The notes beneath the pieces are model-generated. The model was not told where the DNA came from. It saw nothing but the letters and a program-made list of their open reading frames with translations, and made no database searches. 36,074 bases of DNA from Planctomycetota bacterium. GTDB lineage: Bacteria > Planctomycetota > Planctomycetia > Pirellulales > Lacipirellulaceae. The DNA lies in assembly GCA_013152515.1 (NCBI GenBank), contig JAADGD010000225.1:1-36074 (forward strand). Reading direction: 5' to 3'. Positions 11,485 through 33,181 of this stretch are shown here, one piece after another; the stretch's first letter is position 1, and the number at the start of each line of letters is the position of its first letter. Made by a program: the position numbers and the translations under genes.

Positions 11485-13827
11485 CTATCTTGCCACCGTC
11501 GGAACAAATTCGGCTTTGGCTTCGTCGCTTTCTTTCGCCATCAAATAGGCTTTGATACTTTGCTGGATCAAACGGGCACGCTCTGCCATGTCGGATTTAC
11601 GGCCTCTTTTTGACCGTTTGGGGCGAATTTTGAGATCGACTTTGGTGTGGGCGTACTCTCCGGCGGCGAAGCCGAGGCTATTGGAGCGTTCGACGCGGAC
11701 CTCAGAAAACTGCATCTCGACACGGAAGATCACATGATGGTCTCCTTGACGTCGGTCGTAGGAAACCTTCTCGCTCGAGACTTCTAACTCGACCGAGTTT
11801 TCACGCGTCGAAATGATCTTGGCCTGATGGTCCGAAACAAAGCCTCGTAGTTTCTCGATCGCAATATCGATTGGCACGGCGCTCGTCAAACTGGTTTCGA
11901 CAACCGACTGAACACGCAGGCTAGCAAATTTCCACCACGGGTTTTTCTTCACGATCTTTTCCATACCATTACCTAATTGAACGACTTGGTTACGACCTTG
12001 TTCCTTCGCTTGGAGCAGAGCACGATCCGATCGGCGTAACATGGTTTCAGGGGTATCACCAGCTTGCTGTTCGGTGACACCAAAGCTGGCGGTGATTCGT
12101 TTGTTGCCGAGGCAAGAGTGTTGCAATTCAGAGAGTTTGCGTCGGATCTGCTCGGCACGTCGGGCACCATCGGCATTCGTGCAGTCAGCACACAAAACGG
12201 CAAATTCTTCGCCCCCGTAGCGGGCAACCAAGTCTCCCGCACGGCACAACGAGCTGAGCAAGTTGGCCAGCGAGATAATCGCCTCGTCGCCCGCTTGATG
12301 TCCATAGGTATCGTTGATGTTTTTGAAATGATCAATGTCGCACATAATCAGACTGCACGGCTGCCCAGCTTGTTGGTGTGCTTCGATAAACAAGGCCAAC
12401 ATGCGATCGAATTCCGCACGATTGGCGATCTTGGTCATCGGGTCTTTGGTGACTTCAGCGTGGAGCGCCTCGCATTTTTCTTCGAGCGACGCTTCTGGCT
12501 GGGCATCGTGAAGCAGCACCGTGGCTCCCAACACTTTGCCCTCGGGCGAGTGAACTGGGATGGTGTGTAAATCGATCGCCACATGATGTCCCTGACGTCC
12601 TTTGACGAGCAACCGCTGTCGAAGTTGGGTGTTGTTGATGAGCGATTTGGCGACAGGACACGCATCGTCAGCAATCCGGTAATCTGCTTGAGTACACATA
12701 TCAAGCAAGCTGGGAGCAAATGCCCGCCCAGTAGCCGCTTCGCAGTTAATGCCGGTAAGTCGCTCAGTCCCTTTGCTCCACAAAGTGATTCTGGCCTGCG
12801 CGTCCACAAACACCACGCCATCGTGCATCGCATCAATAAGTTTTTCCTCAAACCGAGACCGCGAAGGGTTTGATTCGATGGGCCCCGCTGTTGGGGCGAT
12901 CTTTGCTACTGGAACAGTGGGCGCACTCCAAGGCAAAACTTGCTCGGCTACTTTTCCTAACCAGCGATTGGTGACTTGATCGGAGAGTGTACTCTGATTT
13001 TTTTCGAGCGACTCGACAAATTGCTTGACTAAACCAGGATCGAATTGCATTCCTGCCAGCTCAAACAACTCATGTAGTGCACGTTCATGAGATTTCGCAG
13101 GCCGATTGACCTGATCGGTAGTCATTGCATCAAATGCGTCAACGATCGTAATCATCCGCGAGACTAACGGAATGCTCGCTCCTTGCAAGGGAAATTTGCC
13201 ATCTTGACAGTCGTAGTGGACCCCGACATAACGCACCGCTTCTAAGACTTGTTCGTCTCCGCAACAGCTGGAGAGAATATCGAGCCCGATCTCGCGGAAT
13301 TGTTCGATCGAAGCGAGCTCTTTGGAAGTTAAGCGTCCAGGATTGAGCAAAATGCTCTCGGAGGCTCCGATCTTGCCAATGTCGTGCATCAATGCCGCGA
13401 ATTCGAGTGTATCTCGCGTCTTGTCTTCCAACGCCACATGCTCTGCCCAAGCACTGCACGCCAGCGCAACTCGCAAACTATGCGCTGCCGTATGGGGATG
13501 CTTGTATCGCAAGGCCTTGAGCAGGCTGTTGACCATGCCAAGCCGCCCCTCGGACAATAAATGGCCGGGGTGGTTTTTCTCGGTAATCAGCTCTTCCGGC
13601 TGGCGCGCTGACAAGCCGCTCTCGGAAGCGGCCTCTTCGAGCGCATTCAGCAGCGAACTGATTTCTGCCACTCGATTCTGAGTCGTTACGCGGCGCGTCG
13701 AGACTTCGGGACTTGCCTCCAAAGGGGCCGGCCTCGTCACCGGTAGATTCGTCCCTGGAAGTTCATTCCCCGGCAACACAACGGTTGAGACCGGAGTTTC
13801 CGGGTTGGAAGTGATTGATTCGGTCAT
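11485..13827 (-). CDS. HD-GYP-like / PAS / GGDEF protein with an additional C-terminal domain
   Basis: HD region MHDIGKIGASESILLNPGRLTSKEL; PAS EEKLIDAMHDGVVFVDAQARITLWSKGTERLTG; GGDEF region with RAGDLVARYGGEEF (RxxD five residues before GGEEF); ~145-aa C-terminal extension. Confidence 0.92.
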   Translation of the reverse strand: MTESITSNPETPVSTVVLPGNELPGTNLPVTRPAPLEASPEVSTRRVTTQNRVAEISSLLNALEEAASESGLSARQPEELITEKNHPGHLLSEGRLGMVNSLLKALRYKHPHTAAHSLRVALACSAWAEHVALEDKTRDTLEFAALMHDIGKIGASESILLNPGRLTSKELASIEQFREIGLDILSSCCGDEQVLEAVRYVGVHYDCQDGKFPLQGASIPLVSRMITIVDAFDAMTTDQVNRPAKSHERALHELFELAGMQFDPGLVKQFVESLEKNQSTLSDQVTNRWLGKVAEQVLPWSAPTVPVAKIAPTAGPIESNPSRSRFEEKLIDAMHDGVVFVDAQARITLWSKGTERLTGINCEAATGRAFAPSLLDMCTQADYRIADDACPVAKSLINNTQLRQRLLVKGRQGHHVAIDLHTIPVHSPEGKVLGATVLLHDAQPEASLEEKCEALHAEVTKDPMTKIANRAEFDRMLALFIEAHQQAGQPCSLIMCDIDHFKNINDTYGHQAGDEAIISLANLLSSLCRAGDLVARYGGEEFAVLCADCTNADGARRAEQIRRKLSELQHSCLGNKRITASFGVTEQQAGDTPETMLRRSDRALLQAKEQGRNQVVQLGNGMEKIVKKNPWWKFASLRVQSVVETSLTSAVPIDIAIEKLRGFVSDHQAKIISTRENSVELEVSSEKVSYDRRQGDHHVIFRVEMQFSEVRVERSNSLGFAAGEYAHTKVDLKIRPKRSKRGRKSDMAERARLIQQSIKAYLMAKESDEAKAEFVPTVAR

Positions 13828-15641: not shown

Positions 15642-18614
15642 CTAAGGCGTTTCGTCAGATTTTTCGACAGGCTTTTCCTCAGTTGTTTTATCAGGCGTTT
15701 TCAGTTGCTGTGCGTCGAACTTTGCCAGATGCCAAGTGATGCGGTCGTGATCGTGGAAGGAAATACCCCAGTCGCGATAGCGGACGGCATGTTCGGTGAA
15801 TCCGCGAGCTTCGAAAAAATTGCTCAAAAAGTAACAAGCGTCGCACCAGCCGAACGTAGAATTGTCGTCGCGGATCAACGGGTCGAACTCCTCCAGTGGT
15901 ATCTGGTCGGCGGATTCGGCGGCCATAATCGTGGTGACCGCTTTGGCAAAGCGTGTGGACCAGGGCTTGTCGGGGTCTTCTTCTTTGTCCGCCCATTCTG
16001 TGAGCTTGTCGAGAGATTGTTCCGTCAGTTTCTTGTCGTCACGGTCGAGAGCAATGGCCAGTAAAAAACTGTCGCTGTAGAGCCCAGGTATTTCCTTTTG
16101 CCGCAGCTTCATCATTTTCAGGGCTCGGTCGAGATCACCTTCCATCAAATAGTAGGCGAGCGGCCACCAACCGGCAGAGGTACAGTCTTGCAAGGCCTGC
16201 GGCCCCAATTGTTGAAGTGCGAGCTTCTTGGCTTCTTCAATTTCATCCACGTTGCCTGATCGACGGCACCACAGATACCATTTAAGGCCGCTATAGGTTG
16301 GGTAGGACTTGCTGAGTTCATAAAACCATTTCCCTGCTTCTTCGCCGAGTTCTAAACGCTCGCAGACCTTTGCCGCTATTCCTAAACCTCGTCCCGACCA
16401 ACTTTGGGCAGATTCCAGAGCATGAGGCTTGGCTTCTTCGGCACGATCGTGGCGGAGATAAAAACGGGCGATTTCGTAGTGCGTGTTGCTGTGCCCGAGT
16501 CCGAAATCCTCTTCTTCCAGATAGAGTTTCAGCGTGGGAACCACTTTGTCCAATTCTTTGGCATACTCGTACGCCCAAGCCCAATCTCGGGCGGTCGCGT
16601 ACGTCGGGCTCAGTCCAAACGACGTCTCGTAACAGCGACACGAATCTTCGTATTCGAGACGCTTCAAATAGAACTCCCCCAATTGGTGCCAAGCGGTAGC
16701 ACTGAATCCGGCACGTTCTTCCCAAGCCGCGAGTTCCTCTGGTTTCGCTTGCTTCGCTTCTTTCAATCGCCCTTTGATTTCGTTGACGAGTACCATCGGC
16801 GAATACGGGGAGACCTTTTTCAGCTCACGCAACAGCATTTGGCGAAATTTATTGCCGAGCTTTCCACGTTTGCTATTCACAAACAGGCTGCTGGCGGTGA
16901 AATCTCGCGAGGCACCGTAGTAAGCGTCGTAGCCCACGTTTTCGTCGCGTGAATTCTTGGTACTCCAGACAGAATACGTGTCGTAGCCGATCCACAAACT
17001 GGGATCGACGAAGCGCAGGTCGCGGCACGCTCGAGTCACTTCCTCCGGTTCGTGCTTCGCCGAGTATTTTCGTGAGACAAAGTAGCCTCGGAGCGGGTGA
17101 TGTTCCAACGCGGGCAGAAACGCGTCGACATAGGGCACTAACGACTGTTCGGTTGAACCACATCCTGCAACATAAAGATTCGCCGCCGCGACATGGGCTG
17201 CCGTGTCTTCCAGCAGGGTTGCCAATAGTTGCCAACTCGGGTCGGCTCGATCCTCTTCCTCGCGCAGAGCTTCGAGGACGGCTCCCCAGCCATTGAGCGG
17301 CGAGGCTTTTGTTGGGGGTTGCGACGCGGCTTCCTGAACAGCGGCTGGTAACTCGGCATTCTCTGCCCAACCGTTGGCACAGGCATAGTACATGGCACTC
17401 ATACTAGCCCGACTGACGCGGTGCATGATTCCTAAGCTACCTTTGTGGGCCAGTGGAGAGTATAAATTGAATGCCAACGGGCAATCCTTCATGGTTTCTT
17501 CTGCGGTGCTGTTGATCCTGCGTTTTTCGTCCGACAGATAAAAGGACCAGAATCTCAGATAACGGGCCCAGTGGTTACCCGTCTCAACGAGTTGGCCCAG
17601 TTCTTCGGTGTCGTAGCGGCAGTACGGTTCGATCACTTCTGCCCAGGCGGGCAACGAGGGGAGATCGGCCACCTCGACGCCCTCGGGCAGCGGATCTTCT
17701 AATTGTTCGATCGCGGCAAAATGAATTCCGGCCATTGCGCGTGCATAAGCCCAATGCCAACGACCAAAGAGATAGTCGTCGTACTTTGCACGTAAACGTT
17801 CTGCATAAATGAGCGAGCGTGCTTTGAAAACTCGCGAGGTGGCTCCCCAGTATCCTTCGGTCAAGATACCGAGATTCGCATACGCGTTGGCCAGTCGTCC
17901 CAGCAGTTCAGGCGATTCTCTTTGGCTGTCCAGCAACTTCCCAATCTTTCGGATTGCCAAAAATTGAGCGAGGAGATCGACTTCCGACAGTTGCTGGTCT
18001 AGCTCGGCTAGCTCTTGCTCCGAAGGAGGTTCGATCTTCGCTTCCGTCTCTTCCGAAGAGTCCTCTGCTGGCTTCTCTGCCCCAAGTTCCACGAGTAGAT
18101 CAACGAATTCGCCGCGTGAGAGCGTTTCCAACTGCGTAATGAGCGTAGGGTAGGTCTGTTTTGAGTTGGCCTCGAATTTGAGAATTTTTGACCAGATCTT
18201 TTTTTCTTCGCCGCCATCTGCTTGTTGGCTGATTTGTACGAGACAGTTTCCGTCTGTCCCAGCATCGACGGTGAGGAGTAACTCGATTTTCGAGTCTGCC
18301 GAGCTGGTTTCTCGGAGACTCTGATCACGAGTCGCCAATCCCAACTCATCACGAGCGGCAATCAGGAACGCCTGACGGGCCAATTCTCGTGGCAACAAGC
18401 CCGTAATTTTCTTAGCACGTTCCTTGTCGAATCCTACCTGATGCCTTGTTTGTAAGACCAACACTTCGAGTGCGGCACCAACGTTCGTTTGTTGCAGACA
18501 AAGGGCCATCCAGAGTATGACCAACAGAAATAAAGGCCGATTCGTCACGTCGCCACCACCTTTCACAGAATAGGATCCGAGAGAAGTCCAGGCCGACGTT
18601 TCCTCTGGAAACAA
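15642..18614 (-). CDS. Large secreted/membrane TPR-like repeat protein
   Basis: 990 aa, N-terminal hydrophobic signal (RPLFLLVILWMALCLQQT; true start possibly GTG ~18548), repeated helix pairs such as AWHQLGEFYLKRLEYEDSCRCYETSFGLSPTYATARDWAWAYEYAKEL. Confidence 0.7.
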   Translation of the reverse strand: MFPEETSAWTSLGSYSVKGGGDVTNRPLFLLVILWMALCLQQTNVGAALEVLVLQTRHQVGFDKERAKKITGLLPRELARQAFLIAARDELGLATRDQSLRETSSADSKIELLLTVDAGTDGNCLVQISQQADGGEEKKIWSKILKFEANSKQTYPTLITQLETLSRGEFVDLLVELGAEKPAEDSSEETEAKIEPPSEQELAELDQQLSEVDLLAQFLAIRKIGKLLDSQRESPELLGRLANAYANLGILTEGYWGATSRVFKARSLIYAERLRAKYDDYLFGRWHWAYARAMAGIHFAAIEQLEDPLPEGVEVADLPSLPAWAEVIEPYCRYDTEELGQLVETGNHWARYLRFWSFYLSDEKRRINSTAEETMKDCPLAFNLYSPLAHKGSLGIMHRVSRASMSAMYYACANGWAENAELPAAVQEAASQPPTKASPLNGWGAVLEALREEEDRADPSWQLLATLLEDTAAHVAAANLYVAGCGSTEQSLVPYVDAFLPALEHHPLRGYFVSRKYSAKHEPEEVTRACRDLRFVDPSLWIGYDTYSVWSTKNSRDENVGYDAYYGASRDFTASSLFVNSKRGKLGNKFRQMLLRELKKVSPYSPMVLVNEIKGRLKEAKQAKPEELAAWEERAGFSATAWHQLGEFYLKRLEYEDSCRCYETSFGLSPTYATARDWAWAYEYAKELDKVVPTLKLYLEEEDFGLGHSNTHYEIARFYLRHDRAEEAKPHALESAQSWSGRGLGIAAKVCERLELGEEAGKWFYELSKSYPTYSGLKWYLWCRRSGNVDEIEEAKKLALQQLGPQALQDCTSAGWWPLAYYLMEGDLDRALKMMKLRQKEIPGLYSDSFLLAIALDRDDKKLTEQSLDKLTEWADKEEDPDKPWSTRFAKAVTTIMAAESADQIPLEEFDPLIRDDNSTFGWCDACYFLSNFFEARGFTEHAVRYRDWGISFHDHDRITWHLAKFDAQQLKTPDKTTEEKPVEKSDETP

Positions 18615-21307: not shown

Positions 21308-22405
21308 TTAGTACGTCAAGCCGCCGCGTACGAATAGCGAATTATCGAGTCGTACGTTGGGTGTGGCGCTGGCGAATTCTAGCTCGCGGCCGAAGACGTA
21401 GCCGACTTCTATGCGGCGGCTGAGGCCGCCGGGGATTTTTCGCTCGACGCCGACGTAGAGGCGAAAATCGGTATAGGTGAGTAAGTCTTGGACGAGAGTC
21501 GGCATTGCTGGGATTGGGCGACGCTCGATCGACCAGATGCCGCCGCCAAATTCGCCAGCGACGTAAGCCCAGCGTTCGCCGTCGGACAGACGCCAAGCAA
21601 TTCGCGGGCGGGGAAGGATTGCTTCGTATTTGACGTCAGGCGTCGGTTGGTAAATGACTCCGCCGACTGGCAAGATCGAGATATCTTCGCGATTGAGATA
21701 CGCAACGCCCAATACCCATTGCGCAGCGGGCGACGATTCGTAAACGGCCAAGGCTTGGCCCGTGACACGAAAAGCGTCGGCGTCGCTGCTTTCAAAATCG
21801 CTGTACTGCCCGAGCGTGACCGCCGCGTTCATTGCCCACGGGCCCTTGCCAAATTTGCGAAGGTGACGAAACGAGACTTCCGCGTCGAAGACTCGCGCGG
21901 GCAAGTCGGGCGTCGTGGGGCCGTCGAGATAATGGACGGCAAAGCGTGGCGTGATCAACAGCGGCGCCGACACGCGAAAGAATGGCACGCCAAAGACGAG
22001 GCCCGTTTCGAGCTCGCTGAAGCCGAGACTGTCGTCGTCGAATTGCGGAATCCAAGTCCCGCTAAAGAACAGCTTTTGAAAGAGCCCCTCACGAAACCCA
22101 GACGGCACGTGCTCAGTCGCTTGCGGCTTAGCCTGCTGAAATACTTCCGACTGGCAAAACTCTGGACACGAATCAAGATAAATCGGCGTTTGATCTAACG
22201 GAGGAGCCGAGCACACCACTTCGGACGGGGACGGCATCCTGGGCTGATACGGCACCATTTCCTGGACGAGCTGCCCGCCGTAGTCGGCCTGGGGTTGGAT
22301 GAAGATAGGTTGAGCGTTGGTACGTGCTGGAACGAATGCGATGAGGAGTATTGTGACGATGGCGAGGCGTAGCTCGCCGGCTGCTTGGTTGGCGATCATG
22401 AACAT
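21308..22405 (-). CDS. Putative outer-membrane/beta-barrel protein (paralog of the next gene)
   Basis: Start ATG 22405 (MFMIANQAAGELRLAIVTILLIAFVPARTNAQ). Shares PLLITPxFAxxxxDGP...PDLPARVxDAxxxxxxHxR...ILPVGGVxxxP with 22417..23688. Confidence 0.65.
   Translation of the reverse strand: MFMIANQAAGELRLAIVTILLIAFVPARTNAQPIFIQPQADYGGQLVQEMVPYQPRMPSPSEVVCSAPPLDQTPIYLDSCPEFCQSEVFQQAKPQATEHVPSGFREGLFQKLFFSGTWIPQFDDDSLGFSELETGLVFGVPFFRVSAPLLITPRFAVHYLDGPTTPDLPARVFDAEVSFRHLRKFGKGPWAMNAAVTLGQYSDFESSDADAFRVTGQALAVYESSPAAQWVLGVAYLNREDISILPVGGVIYQPTPDVKYEAILPRPRIAWRLSDGERWAYVAGEFGGGIWSIERRPIPAMPTLVQDLLTYTDFRLYVGVERKIPGGLSRRIEVGYVFGRELEFASATPNVRLDNSLFVRGGLTY
22361..22383. repeat. Short hairpin repeat, copy 2 (inside the signal-peptide coding region)
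   Basis: ggcgaggcgtagctcgccggctg, identical to the core of copy 1. Confidence 0.9.
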
Positions 22406-22416
22406 ACCGCGATGCC

Positions 22417-23688
22417 TCAAAAATCAACTCCAGCACGGACCATCACGGTGTCGTCAAGATTCAAGCTCCTGGTGGCGGTATCGGTGTAGATGATCTCGCG
22501 ATCAAGAACGTAGGCGATTTCGATGTGCCCGCGCGCTTGGGTTTGGGTTTCCCACTCGAGGCCGTAGATGATGCGGACATCGTTGTAGTCGATGTCGTCT
22601 GGCGAGCCATCTGCTCGTTCGATAGTCCACCGTCCGCCACCGTATTCGCCAGCAAAGTAAATCCACCATTGGCTACTACCTATATTGATCGAGCGGCGGC
22701 GAATCTTGGGATTTGGGAAGACGAGGTAAAAATCCCAAAGGCCGTTGGGTCGCCAATGAACACCGCCGGCGGGAAGCACTTTAATACGATTGCGGTCGAG
22801 ATACCAAGCACCGATGAGGATGTCGAACTGGGGTGAAAACGCCAGGACGCCCAAGCCTCGTCCAAGAATGCGGAGCGAATCGCCATTGACTTCATTAAAG
22901 TCGGTCCACACGCCAGTCCGAAGACCCAAGTCGGCATGGAGCCAGTCGGTGAGCCGCGGATGCCAAGCCGCATCAAGATAAGCATCGTAGACTCGTGCCG
23001 GCAAATCGGGGTTCGGTGGATCTCCTGGAGCGGCCACTGGATTCGTCAAGGGGCCATCAAACCAATTGAATGCGAACCCGGGCGTGATCAATAGCGGAGT
23101 GTTGGGATTGTAAAATATCGGTATGCCAAAGGTTGCGGAAATTTCTGACCGGTTGATCCCCAAGTCATCAGCGCCGCCTTCACCGTAAAGCCACGTATGC
23201 TCGAAGCTGATCTGTTGCATAAATCGCTGCAGACGCGCGAATTGACCGCCGGAATTTTCGTACTGATAGCTGCCCGACTCCCACTGAAAGGGCAGGCCGT
23301 TGGGGAAAATTGAGTTGCCACTTTGAGGTACACCCGGCGAGCCAACGGGATTGGCGGGAGGCAGCACTTGTTGACCAAAAGGTGGCACGACGGACCGGCC
23401 AAATTGGGGAGCCGCTTGAACGCCCGGAGCGACAGGCTGACCAAACCGAGGCGTGACGTTGTAAGGGATGTTGGCGGGAGGTGTTCCCAGTAAAGGATTG
23501 CCATACGGGTCAAAGTTAGGCAGGATGGGAGCAGGATTCGCCGGCGGATTGAAGTTAGGAGCTGCTGACGGAAACTGCACACGTTGAGCGTCAAGCGGAT
23601 TGGCAAAGACCAACCAGACGGCAACGAACAGGGCAAGCAAAGGGAGTCGACGGGACACGAGTCGCCTCGCGCGCAGGGCGCTGATCAA
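22417..23688 (-). CDS. Putative outer-membrane/beta-barrel protein with Pro-rich N-terminal linker
   Basis: Signal peptide LPLLALFVAVWLVFANPLDA, Pro/Asn/Gln-rich linker, C-terminal domain similar to 21308..22405. Confidence 0.65.
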   Translation of the reverse strand: MISALRARRLVSRRLPLLALFVAVWLVFANPLDAQRVQFPSAAPNFNPPANPAPILPNFDPYGNPLLGTPPANIPYNVTPRFGQPVAPGVQAAPQFGRSVVPPFGQQVLPPANPVGSPGVPQSGNSIFPNGLPFQWESGSYQYENSGGQFARLQRFMQQISFEHTWLYGEGGADDLGINRSEISATFGIPIFYNPNTPLLITPGFAFNWFDGPLTNPVAAPGDPPNPDLPARVYDAYLDAAWHPRLTDWLHADLGLRTGVWTDFNEVNGDSLRILGRGLGVLAFSPQFDILIGAWYLDRNRIKVLPAGGVHWRPNGLWDFYLVFPNPKIRRRSINIGSSQWWIYFAGEYGGGRWTIERADGSPDDIDYNDVRIIYGLEWETQTQARGHIEIAYVLDREIIYTDTATRSLNLDDTVMVRAGVDF

Positions 23689-29038: not shown

Positions 29039-29638
29039 TTATGGCGTCGCCGGAGGATCGTCGTCGTTGGCATTGTGAATCGCAACAGGAATGCTCACGG
29101 CCGTCGCAACCACTCCGCCGAGAATCCAAGGGTTGGCAAGACGGCGTTTATTCACGCGGAAAAATTGGTTGATCTTTGGCGCAACGACGCGCTGCCCACG
29201 CACGATTTCGGTTGAGGGCGTCACCAAAACGCCTTGACTGGCGCTCGGCGGCGCCGTGCCCGCCGACCAAACGCGCAACACTTGCGTCTGACCAGCAACC
29301 CGCAATTGGTAGGTGCCACCACTCAGTTCGGCGACCTGAAACCAGCCCTGCTCGTCCGTTTCTGTTTGCCAGCGTTGACGACCGCTAGTCAATTCCACGG
29401 TGGCTCTGGCTATTCCGATGCCTGCATTGTTGACGACCTGCCCTCGCAAAACGCCTCCTCGCTTCAAGGCGACGTCCGCAGCACGCATCGAAGCTGCTGT
29501 GTTGAGCGTTTGCACCTGCTGCGGAACGCTGATAGCAGCCCTAACTAAGCAAGATTCCAGGGTAAGGGCCAACACAAAAATCCCAAAAACGCCAGATCGA
29601 GCTTTGCGTAATTTCCACAGCAACATAGAAGACTCCAT
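29039..29638 (-). CDS. Secreted carboxypeptidase-regulatory-like protein with C-terminal helix-NDDDPPATP tail (paralog 1)
   Basis: Start MESSMLLWKLRK; GGVLRGQVVNNAGIGIARATVELTSG...TDEQGWFQVAELSGGTYQLRVAGQTQVLRVWSAGTAPPSASQGVLV; ends HNANDDDPPATP. Confidence 0.75.
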   Translation of the reverse strand: MESSMLLWKLRKARSGVFGIFVLALTLESCLVRAAISVPQQVQTLNTAASMRAADVALKRGGVLRGQVVNNAGIGIARATVELTSGRQRWQTETDEQGWFQVAELSGGTYQLRVAGQTQVLRVWSAGTAPPSASQGVLVTPSTEIVRGQRVVAPKINQFFRVNKRRLANPWILGGVVATAVSIPVAIHNANDDDPPATP

Positions 29639-29713
29639 ACGCGTAAGCCCAATGCGGTAATTCAATGTGATGGTCAAGGGCGTCAATCTGTCAATTCCGA
29701 AAACAGCAAAAAG

Positions 29714-29746
29714 AAATCCGAAGGCCATCTTACGGCCTTCGGATTT
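29714..29746 (-). terminator. Rho-independent terminator
   Basis: aaatccgaaggcc...ggccttcggattt, 13-bp perfect stem, T-rich on the minus strand, downstream of the 29783 stop. Confidence 0.85.
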
Positions 29747-29782
29747 CGGAATTCGTATGCCGCACAGTATTCGTCAATCCAC

Positions 29783-30382
29783 TTACGGCGTGGCCGGCGG
29801 TGGATCGTCATCGTCGTCCAACGCGATCGGAATCGCGATCGCTGCTGCAACAGCTCCTGCTGTAAGGATCGGATGCTCGGCTATCCATTGGCCTGCCGCC
29901 GAAAAGGGATTGCCTGGACCGCCACCATATTGACCGCGCACCACATCAACTGGTTGCGATACGATGCTCAGGCCTTTCGCAGCCGCTGGCGGAGCAGTTC
30001 GTGGAGCCCATAGACGATAGACGCCTTGGTGCCCCTTGGAAGCGACTTGATAGACGCCACCTTTTAAGCCTTTTGCCTCGAAGCGTCCCGATTCGTCAGA
30101 AACGACGCGAACAACTTCTTTTCCGCCCGTCTGCAGAGAGACCGGCGAGTTGGCCACAGCTTTACCTTGGGTATCAAGGATGCGTCCGACAAGCACACCT
30201 TTGTCCTGTAGGACAACATCGCTGGGGGCCTGCACATTGCGTGCGCCAGTCACTATTTTCGCAGGCAAGGGAGCAGTCGTAGCCGACTCTCCTGCCACCA
30301 ACAACTGCGGCTGCAACACCATAGCGACCGTGGTCACCCCTGCTGTTACTCCCCGCATGATCTTCTCACGATACAAAGACAT
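29783..30382 (-). CDS. Secreted carboxypeptidase-regulatory-like protein with C-terminal helix-DDDDDPPPATP tail (paralog 2)
   Basis: GVLVGRILDTQGKAVANSPVSLQTGGKEVVRVVSDESGRFEAKGLKGGVYQVASKGHQGVYRLWAPRTAPPAAAKGL...VDVVRGQ...IALDDDDDPPPATP. Confidence 0.78.
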   Translation of the reverse strand: MSLYREKIMRGVTAGVTTVAMVLQPQLLVAGESATTAPLPAKIVTGARNVQAPSDVVLQDKGVLVGRILDTQGKAVANSPVSLQTGGKEVVRVVSDESGRFEAKGLKGGVYQVASKGHQGVYRLWAPRTAPPAAAKGLSIVSQPVDVVRGQYGGGPGNPFSAAGQWIAEHPILTAGAVAAAIAIPIALDDDDDPPPATP

Positions 30383-30596
30383 CAAACGACTCCCTTCATC
30401 CCCCAGCCAATTAGAAACGAACACATTAAAATACTTGTTTCACAGTCCCGAACAACGGAACGATTGTACTCACATCAAACCTGCAAATTAGAGCGGCGGA
30501 AGCCTAGCCAACATCGCACTTTCTGCCAAGGCCACTTTTTAAGGAATTTCAGCAAATGTTCCTCTAAACCTTTTGACCCTTCACGATTTCGCTTGT

Positions 30597-31220
30597 TTAG
30601 GGAGTGGCTGGAGGAGTATCGTCGTCATCCAATGCTAGCGGCACAGCAATCGCGGTTGCAATTGCACCAGCTGTAATCAGCGGATGATTAGCAATCCAGT
30701 TGCCAATGCCTCTTCTACCACCGCCTCCACCAAAAACACCGCCACCACCACCATCACTGCAAGCACTACCACAAACGGGCGTTCCACAAGTCTGACCACG
30801 CACCACGTCGGTGTTAGAAACCAACATTAAACCTTGCTGTGCTGCCGGCGGCGCTGTTTGGGGCGCCCAAAGTCGATAAACATCTTGCTGTCCGGCGGTT
30901 GCCACTTGATGAACACCACCTTTCAAACCTGTCACCTGAAATTTCCCCGTTTGGTCCGTGAGAGCGCGGGCCACTTCCTTGCCGGAAGTCCGCACCGAAA
31001 CAGTGGCTCCTGCGATCGCCGCCCCCTGGGCGTCGAGCATTTGGCCAACGAGAACGCCGCCCTGGCTGTCGGTCCCTTGATGCAAAGCGATGTCGCGCGG
31101 TGCCTGAATAACGGGCGTGGCAGCGTTGGCGGATACGGGAGCTGCCGTCGCCATCGGTGATATCAACATGCTGGCACACGAGAGCGCGACCGCAAAAACT
31201 TGGACTTGTTTGAATTTCAT
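30597..31220 (-). CDS. Secreted carboxypeptidase-regulatory-like protein with C-terminal helix-DDDDTPPATP tail (paralog 3)
   Basis: GVLVGQMLDAQGAAIAGATVSVRTSGKEVARALTDQTGKFQVTGLKGGVHQVATAGQQDVYRLWAPQTAPPAAQQGL...TDVVRGQ...LALDDDDTPPATP. Confidence 0.8.
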   Translation of the reverse strand: MKFKQVQVFAVALSCASMLISPMATAAPVSANAATPVIQAPRDIALHQGTDSQGGVLVGQMLDAQGAAIAGATVSVRTSGKEVARALTDQTGKFQVTGLKGGVHQVATAGQQDVYRLWAPQTAPPAAQQGLMLVSNTDVVRGQTCGTPVCGSACSDGGGGGVFGGGGGRRGIGNWIANHPLITAGAIATAIAVPLALDDDDTPPATP

Positions 31221-31547: not shown

Positions 31548-32384
31548 TCACCGCCGCCACTTTTTGAAGTGCAGCGCCAACTGCCGTTCAAGATCAGGCA
31601 TAGCTTGGTGCAGTCGCTCTGAAAGTTTTCCCGGAGGATTTCCCCGACGGATGTCTGCCAGGTAATGCACCAATGCCCGATGGACAGGCAAGGGTCCGTG
31701 CAACATAAAATGGACCCAAGCCCAAGCAAAACGATATTCTGGCCCGCCCATCTCAACGAGATCATGATGGGCTTCTAGCGACTCAATGCTGGGGATCATG
31801 CCAAAAAGACGATTAAAACGGAGCTTCTTGAAATGCGGATGATCAAAGGCTCGTTGCTCAGCAGGCATCTCAAAATATTCTGCCAGCCCCTCGTCGAGCC
31901 ACAACGGCACCATCGAAAGATTCGTATGTAGCAACGCGTGCGTACACTCATGCCGCAAGTCCACCGCTAATTCACGATGCCGATAGGCGTAGACGCTGCC
32001 TCGGCCACCTCGTTGCACATACAGCGCGCGGCGATAGGGAACGCGCGGAAAAAGTTCGTTCAGCAATTGTCGGTGACTCTGTTTGTTTTCGAGCAGATAG
32101 ACATTCACCGTCTGAGCTGCAGGCGGGACTGCGAGCGTTCGTTGCAATTCAAGTTCTAAGGCAGAAAGCTCCTGAAACAACGGCGTCAGATTGCCCAGCG
32201 GAAAAGTTGCCTGGCATTGAAAGGGGCCGTAGCTTTGATGATCGACCCACCGTCGCGAAGACGTAGGCAAAGACGAAGGCAATGGCTGCGGCGCAGCACG
32301 ACAGGGTAAGGCTGTGGTAACCCATTGCGACGCCGCCGCCGCCCCGCCAAGGGCTATGAATTGACGCCGCGATAAGCTCTGCAT
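31548..32384 (-). CDS. Tat-signal protein with HExxH motif (DUF1570/peptidase-MA-like)
   Basis: MQSLSRRQFIALGGAAAAS Tat-like signal; DLRHECTHALLHTNLSMVPLWLDEGLAEYFE. ATG overlaps the stop of the upstream gene by one nt (TAATG). Confidence 0.75.
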   Translation of the reverse strand: MQSLSRRQFIALGGAAAASQWVTTALPCRAAPQPLPSSLPTSSRRWVDHQSYGPFQCQATFPLGNLTPLFQELSALELELQRTLAVPPAAQTVNVYLLENKQSHRQLLNELFPRVPYRRALYVQRGGRGSVYAYRHRELAVDLRHECTHALLHTNLSMVPLWLDEGLAEYFEMPAEQRAFDHPHFKKLRFNRLFGMIPSIESLEAHHDLVEMGGPEYRFAWAWVHFMLHGPLPVHRALVHYLADIRRGNPPGKLSERLHQAMPDLERQLALHFKKWRR

Positions 32385-33181
32385 TAACCGGCTTTCTTCG
32401 AGGAAAAGAAGCTTCGCCACCCACGCCGGTTGCGTACGGCCCGTCGCCCAGCCGGAACTTTTTCGCCTCGCGCCACGAACGCGGGATTGTGGCAGCAAAG
32501 ATCTTCAGCCGTCGCCGCGTCGGTGAGCTCAGCAACGCGTTCGAAGGCTCTGTGCATCAACGGCCGTCGCGACTTAGTGCCATGAGCGTCGGTCGCAATG
32601 AAATGTACCAAGCCATTTTCCAGCATCCACTCGGCCAAGTCTTGCGATTTTGGCCCAAACGTGCCCATCAAGCTGCCTGCCGTCACTTGCATCAAGCATC
32701 CCCCCTCGACCAATTCTGGCAGCAAATTGGGCTCTCGCAACAAGCCGCGATTCCGTTCTGGATGAGACAAGATGCCAACTATACCTTGCCGCAACAGCGA
32801 CGCTAGCACACCTTCAAGCGGAAAATAGAGTTCGTGCGGCAATTCCAGCAACACATGCTTCCGCAAATCACCAAGCGACATCACCTCGCCACTCTCGAGT
32901 CCTTCGAGCATGCCATCTTCGATCCGCACATCTCCGCCAGGCATCACCCGTAGCGCGATCCCATGCTGATCGAGTACTTCTTGCAGCTGAACCGTCCGCG
33001 CACGAATGTCGTCGCCCCGATTGTGAGAAAAATTCCCCAGTTGGTGTGGCGTCACAATGGTCAATTGCATTCCGTCGGCGACCGCCATCTGTGCCATGCC
33101 AAGCGTCGTTTCCCAGTCAGTCGACCCATCGTCGATCCCCGGCAGTAAATGGCAATGGATGTCTACGAAACCGTGATGCAC
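32384..33181 (-). CDS. CpsB/YwqE-like PHP-family tyrosine-protein phosphatase
   Basis: MHHGFVDIHCHLLPGIDDGSTDWETTLGMAQMAVADGMQLTIVTPHQLGNF; VHFIATDAHGTKSRRP. Confidence 0.85.
   Translation of the reverse strand: MHHGFVDIHCHLLPGIDDGSTDWETTLGMAQMAVADGMQLTIVTPHQLGNFSHNRGDDIRARTVQLQEVLDQHGIALRVMPGGDVRIEDGMLEGLESGEVMSLGDLRKHVLLELPHELYFPLEGVLASLLRQGIVGILSHPERNRGLLREPNLLPELVEGGCLMQVTAGSLMGTFGPKSQDLAEWMLENGLVHFIATDAHGTKSRRPLMHRAFERVAELTDAATAEDLCCHNPAFVARGEKVPAGRRAVRNRRGWRSFFSSKKAG

Follow-up and report, generated by a model that had tools for sequence, protein, structure and literature searches.

The three tandem genes at positions 29039 to 31220 of the window analysed here (the whole stretch of 36,074 nucleotides of contig JAADGD010000225.1, from a Planctomycetota bacterium) belong, on sequence comparison, to a single planctomycete family of probably exported proteins, which is old and has been passed on vertically. 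On balance, they probably encode membrane-anchored transthyretin-like proteins, which may be serviced by a peptidase encoded next to them. It is proposed that a signal peptide would export a single PF13620 beta-sandwich domain, with R[LV]W...APP...VRGQ as its closing motif, and that a flexible linker would lead from this domain to a hydrophobic C-terminal helix, after which the protein ends in a short polar stretch. This helix would most likely hold the protein in a membrane so that the folded domain lies outside, and the neighbouring peptidase may trim or quality-control the family proteins. The anchor appears to be the family's own and not a transferable sorting signal. With this reading, a supposed sorting signal of planctomycetes is given up in favour of a testable conserved unit, consisting of a polysaccharide-type phosphatase gene, a secreted metallopeptidase gene and genes for tandem, presumably anchored, beta-domain proteins. 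Planctomycetes have an unusual cell envelope, the building of which is little understood.

A preliminary description of this DNA had reported three consecutive minus-strand genes whose products terminate in NDDDPPATP, DDDDDPPPATP and DDDDTPPATP, and the ends of the open reading frames agree with this. Paralog 1 (29039..29728, minus strand, type B) comprises a signal-like N-terminus, the PF13620 domain, the basic patch KRRLANPW, a C-terminal helix and the tail HNANDDDPPATP. The same layout is found in paralog 2 (29783..30424, minus strand, type A; tail DDDDDPPPATP) and in paralog 3 (30597..31220, minus strand, type A; tail DDDDTPPATP), the latter having a Gly-rich linker. The C-terminal hydrophobic helices, of about 19 residues and with Kyte-Doolittle values of 1.62–1.84, are ILGGVVATAVSIPVAIHNA in paralog 1 (29069..29125, minus strand; 1.62), HPILTAGAVAAAIAIPIAL in paralog 2 (29819..29875, minus strand; 1.84) and HPLITAGAIATAIAVPLAL in paralog 3 (30630..30686, minus strand; 1.67). 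The single carboxypeptidase-regulatory-like domain originally assigned to each paralog was confirmed as PF13620 (CarboxypepD_reg): against a curated cut-off of 32.3 bits, paralogs 1 and 3 score 39.4 and 36.4 bits, respectively, and paralog 2, at 31.6 bits, falls short by 0.7 bits. The shared motif is likewise present, but alignment showed that its earlier spelling is better replaced by R[LV]WxxxTAPP[AS]A..G...[DE][VI]VRGQ. Invariant columns of the paralog alignment include R.W, T-APP-x-A, V-R-G-Q and the final five residues, PPATP.

The listed open reading frames of paralogs 1 and 2 begin too far upstream, and the likely starts are internal. Because the orthologs point there, MSLYREKIM (30382) is suggested as the start of paralog 2, and M31 or M35 (29638 or 29626) as that of paralog 1; a hydrophobic, signal-like segment follows each revised start, and all three paralogs have a hydrophobic N-terminal segment. 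A lipoprotein assignment was rejected: the Cys in many putative signal peptides of the family (ALSC) stands without a lipobox fit as judged by eye, and is followed by an Ala-rich cleavage-like site.

The last 28 residues are 52–74% identical between paralogs, against 32–50% for the remainder of the protein, and between the paralogs and their orthologs in the related genome G012 the corresponding values are 75–93% and 51–80%. At identical tail residues the codons differ synonymously in 7 of 14, 11 of 14 and 13 of 20 cases, that is, at half to four fifths of them, so that it is selection on the protein that keeps the tail, and recent gene conversion as the source of the tail identity is ruled out. 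Recent local duplication is also ruled out, because in the tree every paralog of the window pairs with its own ortholog in G012, with paralog 1 in a separate, older lineage. The tail had been called nearly invariant, which is true of its last four to six residues and not of the rest. Division of the family into two clean clades, with HN- and D-type tails, was considered and rejected, since it forces at least four changes on the tree.

Members of the family were found in 33 of 60 related genomes, mostly as two or three tandem copies, and named carriers include Bythopirellula polymerisocia, Adhaeretor mobilis and Botrimarina colliarenosi. A 34th listed genome, G040, was discarded, its weak match lying within a 1030-residue protein. 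Outside the order, six of the genomes sampled from the same class carry the family; elsewhere in the phylum sample, those matches that could be judged extend over no more than the common domain within other proteins. Constant across the family are the single PF13620 domain and its R[LV]W...APP...VRGQ motif, the hydrophobic C-terminal helix and, at the very end, [ST]P or [AGST]S. The terminal dipeptide is found in 85% of members, compared with 3.8% of 550 other open reading frames, although members share descent, so that test values cannot be read as if the events were independent. Of 127 members, 88% have a helix with a Kyte-Doolittle value of at least 1.6, which is followed by a median of nine residues; the net charge of the C-terminal end ranges from -6 to +2 and is negative in most members. 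Beyond the helix the tails of relatives are varied, examples being DDDDPAS, DDDSSS, HNSQRPSSP, SNSKKSPSSP and DDDAS, and in Planctomycetales-like relatives a charged stretch (for example NDLEDKVDAL) precedes TPASP, giving ends of the form LEDKV..TPASP. The proteins at L229, L232, L233, L235 and L237 have a charged, coiled-coil-like extension (NDLEDKV) instead of the short acidic tail and keep the terminal SP. Three Asp residues in a row close to the end are seen in 44% of members, and PPATP as the last five residues in only 4%. The Asp run and PPATP, at first put forward as a signature, are not a conserved core across the wider family, and the combination is, among the proteins compared, a local, lineage-specific variant of a loose polar end.

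Single-domain PF13620 or transthyretin-like (CnaB-type) proteins have the same beta-sandwich by profile and by predicted fold, to which the present family adds the R[LV]W...APP...VRGQ strand, the C-terminal helix, its tandem arrangement and a fixed neighbourhood. With a putative signal peptide at one end and a hydrophobic helix at the other, the family also resembles the PEP-CTERM/exosortase proteins (TIGR02595, PF07589), and the linkage of that system to exopolysaccharide loci (PMC1569441) is a further likeness. It differs in that its end is acidic or neutral rather than basic, and in that one protein family is involved rather than dozens. No PEP motif precedes the helix in the three tails, no CTERM model turns up in NCBIfam at E values of up to 10, and the cluster of basic residues that follows the helix in PEP-CTERM proteins is absent, the end being mostly net negative. 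The charge order of the three paralogs (basic, helix, acidic) is indeed opposite to that of LPXTG, PEP-CTERM and GlyGly-CTERM signals (PMC1569441, PMC3237569), but the reversed polarity noted in the preliminary description is not kept in the wider family. GlyGly-CTERM/rhombosortase systems similarly pair a C-terminal helix with a protease, the two being adjacent if there is a single substrate (PMC3237569); here, however, the neighbour is a DUF1570-type HExxH peptidase and not a rhomboid, and the family is without a GlyGly motif and a basic cluster.

The neighbouring genes are a CpsB/CapC gene (PF19567, capsular polysaccharide synthesis; 32384..33181, minus strand) and a DUF1570-like zinc-peptidase gene (31548..32384, minus strand). 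In window coordinates the stop of the former and the start of the latter overlap by one base, which suggests coupled translation. The peptidase scores 22.4 bits against PF07607 (cut-off 22), and its translation begins with the twin-arginine-type sequence MQSLSRRQF. Residues H183, E184, H187 and E203, which make up HExxH and a downstream Glu, are invariant in 19 sequences, as is WLDEG. With DUF1570 (PF07607) and gluzincins such as collagenase (M9) it has in common HExxH, WLDEG and a matching predicted fold, its model being nearest to collagenase peptidase domains and M1 aminopeptidases; it differs from them in being small, in its twin-arginine-type start and in being tied to CpsB and to the helix-tailed family.

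The gene order is conserved, CpsB/CapC being followed by the Tat-type DUF1570-type HExxH peptidase and then by one to five family genes. The family lies downstream of the DUF1570-like gene on the same strand in 27 of 33 loci, and the count for CpsB/CapC is again 27 of 33. At 80 named peptidase loci (L159–L238), a family gene is found within 1.5 kb downstream in 47 and is absent in 27, the remaining six being on contigs too short, so that the proportion among loci with enough downstream DNA is 47 of 74. This adjacency reaches another family of the class. Where there is enough downstream DNA, the helix-tailed proteins are encoded at 40 of 52 loci with CpsB, as against 4 of 17 without it. No published description of the module was found in the literature searched, coverage of which was partial, and the conserved module is apparently undescribed. 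In several relatives it adjoins polysaccharide genes, so that it is likely to have to do with the envelope or with exported polysaccharide, the link to polysaccharide being suggested by this neighbourhood. Genes of the Wzz/tyrosine-kinase type and Wzy type, or for an M24 peptidase, are found near several loci. The M24 (Xaa-Pro type) gene is often upstream of CpsB (L097, L088, L100 and others), and at these loci a small gene without a Pfam match and a protein kinase gene often come after the helix-tailed genes. The CpsB/CapC and Tat-type peptidase pair is itself conserved in Planctomycetota, with or without helix-tailed proteins.

It is possible, if unlikely, that the neighbouring DUF1570-type metallopeptidase recognises or cleaves the C-terminal region, so releasing or maturing the adjacent family proteins, in what would resemble a sorting or processing pair with a single family of substrates. 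The adjacency of the two genes in 27 of 33 relative loci and 47 of 74 named loci speaks for such dedicated processing, as do the invariant catalytic HExxH and WLDEG in 19 peptidase sequences, the twin-arginine-type N-terminus, the resemblance of the model to collagenase peptidase domains and M1 aminopeptidases, and the constraint on the terminal dipeptide of the family. Haft and Varghese (2011) noted that enzyme and target stay adjacent in single-substrate systems (PMC3237569), and confinement of the tail to one family is therefore compatible with a dedicated system. Co-occurrence is nevertheless loose: for the one candidate enzyme, 30 of the 60 genomes, which are not independent of one another, have both peptidase and family, 3 have the family only, 12 the peptidase only and 15 neither. 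The peptidase, found without the family in those 12 genomes and at 27 named loci, cannot serve only the family; at 12 loci CpsB and peptidase occur together without it, so that at least there the peptidase has another job. No cleavage site was seen.

The helix itself is rich in small residues, is only moderately hydrophobic and contains a conserved Pro. The moderate hydrophobicity and the Pro count against a membrane anchor, as does the charge arrangement, basic ahead of the helix and acidic behind it, which is the opposite of what the positive-inside rule requires for a domain lying outside. These same features, among them a charge pattern unlike that of a normal type I anchor, would fit an alternative in which, instead of entering a membrane, helix and tail serve to join the proteins to one another or to dock them to another envelope protein, the domains forming a surface layer or stalk. 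The charged, coiled-coil-like continuation (NDLEDKV) of Planctomycetales-like relatives would fit it too. In an AlphaFold2 model of paralog 3, built from 37 family rows, an N-terminal helix (residues 3–19) is followed by a confident beta-sandwich (42–134) that includes the VRGQ-motif strand, by a disordered linker and by a low-confidence helix (172–192). The domain matches CnaB, carboxypeptidase D transthyretin-like and pilin domains, of which the pilin and CnaB matches might be taken to favour a role in assembly; but the fold is a very common one, so it provides no pointer to function. Given also that 88% of members reach a hydrophobicity of 1.6, we regard an assembly helix as unlikely and prefer to view the helix as a membrane anchor.

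It is tempting to go further and to suggest that CpsB/CapC, the Tat-exported peptidase and the helix-tailed proteins together make up a system that Planctomycetia devote to envelope assembly, in which the peptidase would recognise the helix and the terminal [ST]P or [AGST]S and process only its neighbours. Such a system would be a one-family counterpart of sortase-like systems, with a gluzincin in place of a sortase, exosortase or rhomboid, but at present we consider its existence quite doubtful.

The preliminary description took the tail for a targeting or anchoring signal, and of these two roles a C-terminal anchoring element is plausible, while the searches do not support a portable targeting signal. 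A tail-only profile built from 29 tails matched the host genome in three places at E < 1e-15, all of them this family, and beyond the three paralogs gave nothing below E 0.24; these statements, like the others made for the host genome, come from pattern and profile searches of an assembly that is about 80% complete. The DNA pattern DDDxPP was found in the tail of paralog 2 (two overlapping matches), in that of paralog 3 and at one unrelated place, on C316 (L010), which was rejected as lying away from any protein end bearing the tail. PA[ST]P followed by a stop occurs at 29 places in the genome, and only the three family genes combine it with an open frame and an upstream hydrophobic helix. That a shared C-terminal signal can be detected in this genome is clear from a positive control, which gave 49 PEP-CTERM matches above cut-off. 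The tail was not found on other folds, all C-terminal profile matches across the 60 related genomes being to the same family, and in 1.42 Mb of fetched planctomycete DNA, a sample biased towards family loci, helix and terminal dipeptide together occur in 103 family proteins and in no others. Restriction to one paralogous family was the outcome that the preliminary description had itself named as speaking against its reading. The best matches outside the family, at L090, L091 and L094 (E 8e-6 to 2e-3), were rejected because the matching segment is N-terminal, and those at L092 and L093 because they are internal, the frames being partial or short. Pfam identifies L090 as DUF6690, and L091 and L094 were grouped with it by reading the sequences; the N-terminal hydrophobic segment of these proteins, GAAVGVPYAIHN, is strikingly like the C-terminal helix of the family, AAAIAIPVAIHN. 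The idea of a general planctomycete targeting signal, borne by many proteins and served by one processing protein, drew on the greater conservation of the tail and on a layout of signal peptide, domain, linker, helix and tail that resembles known signals, but it is very improbable now that, in the host genome and 60 relatives, the tail proves limited to a single family, and that the wider family keeps neither the Asp run nor PPATP. Confined in this way, the tail looks like the family's own membrane anchor.

Elsewhere in the window, two adjacent genes at 21308–23688 encode proteins of 370 and 423 amino acids that both match DUF6268 and probably arose by tandem duplication. An HD domain is joined to PAS and GGDEF domains in a 780-residue protein encoded at 11485–13827, and a 990-residue open frame at 15642–18614 is without a Pfam match at E 0.01.
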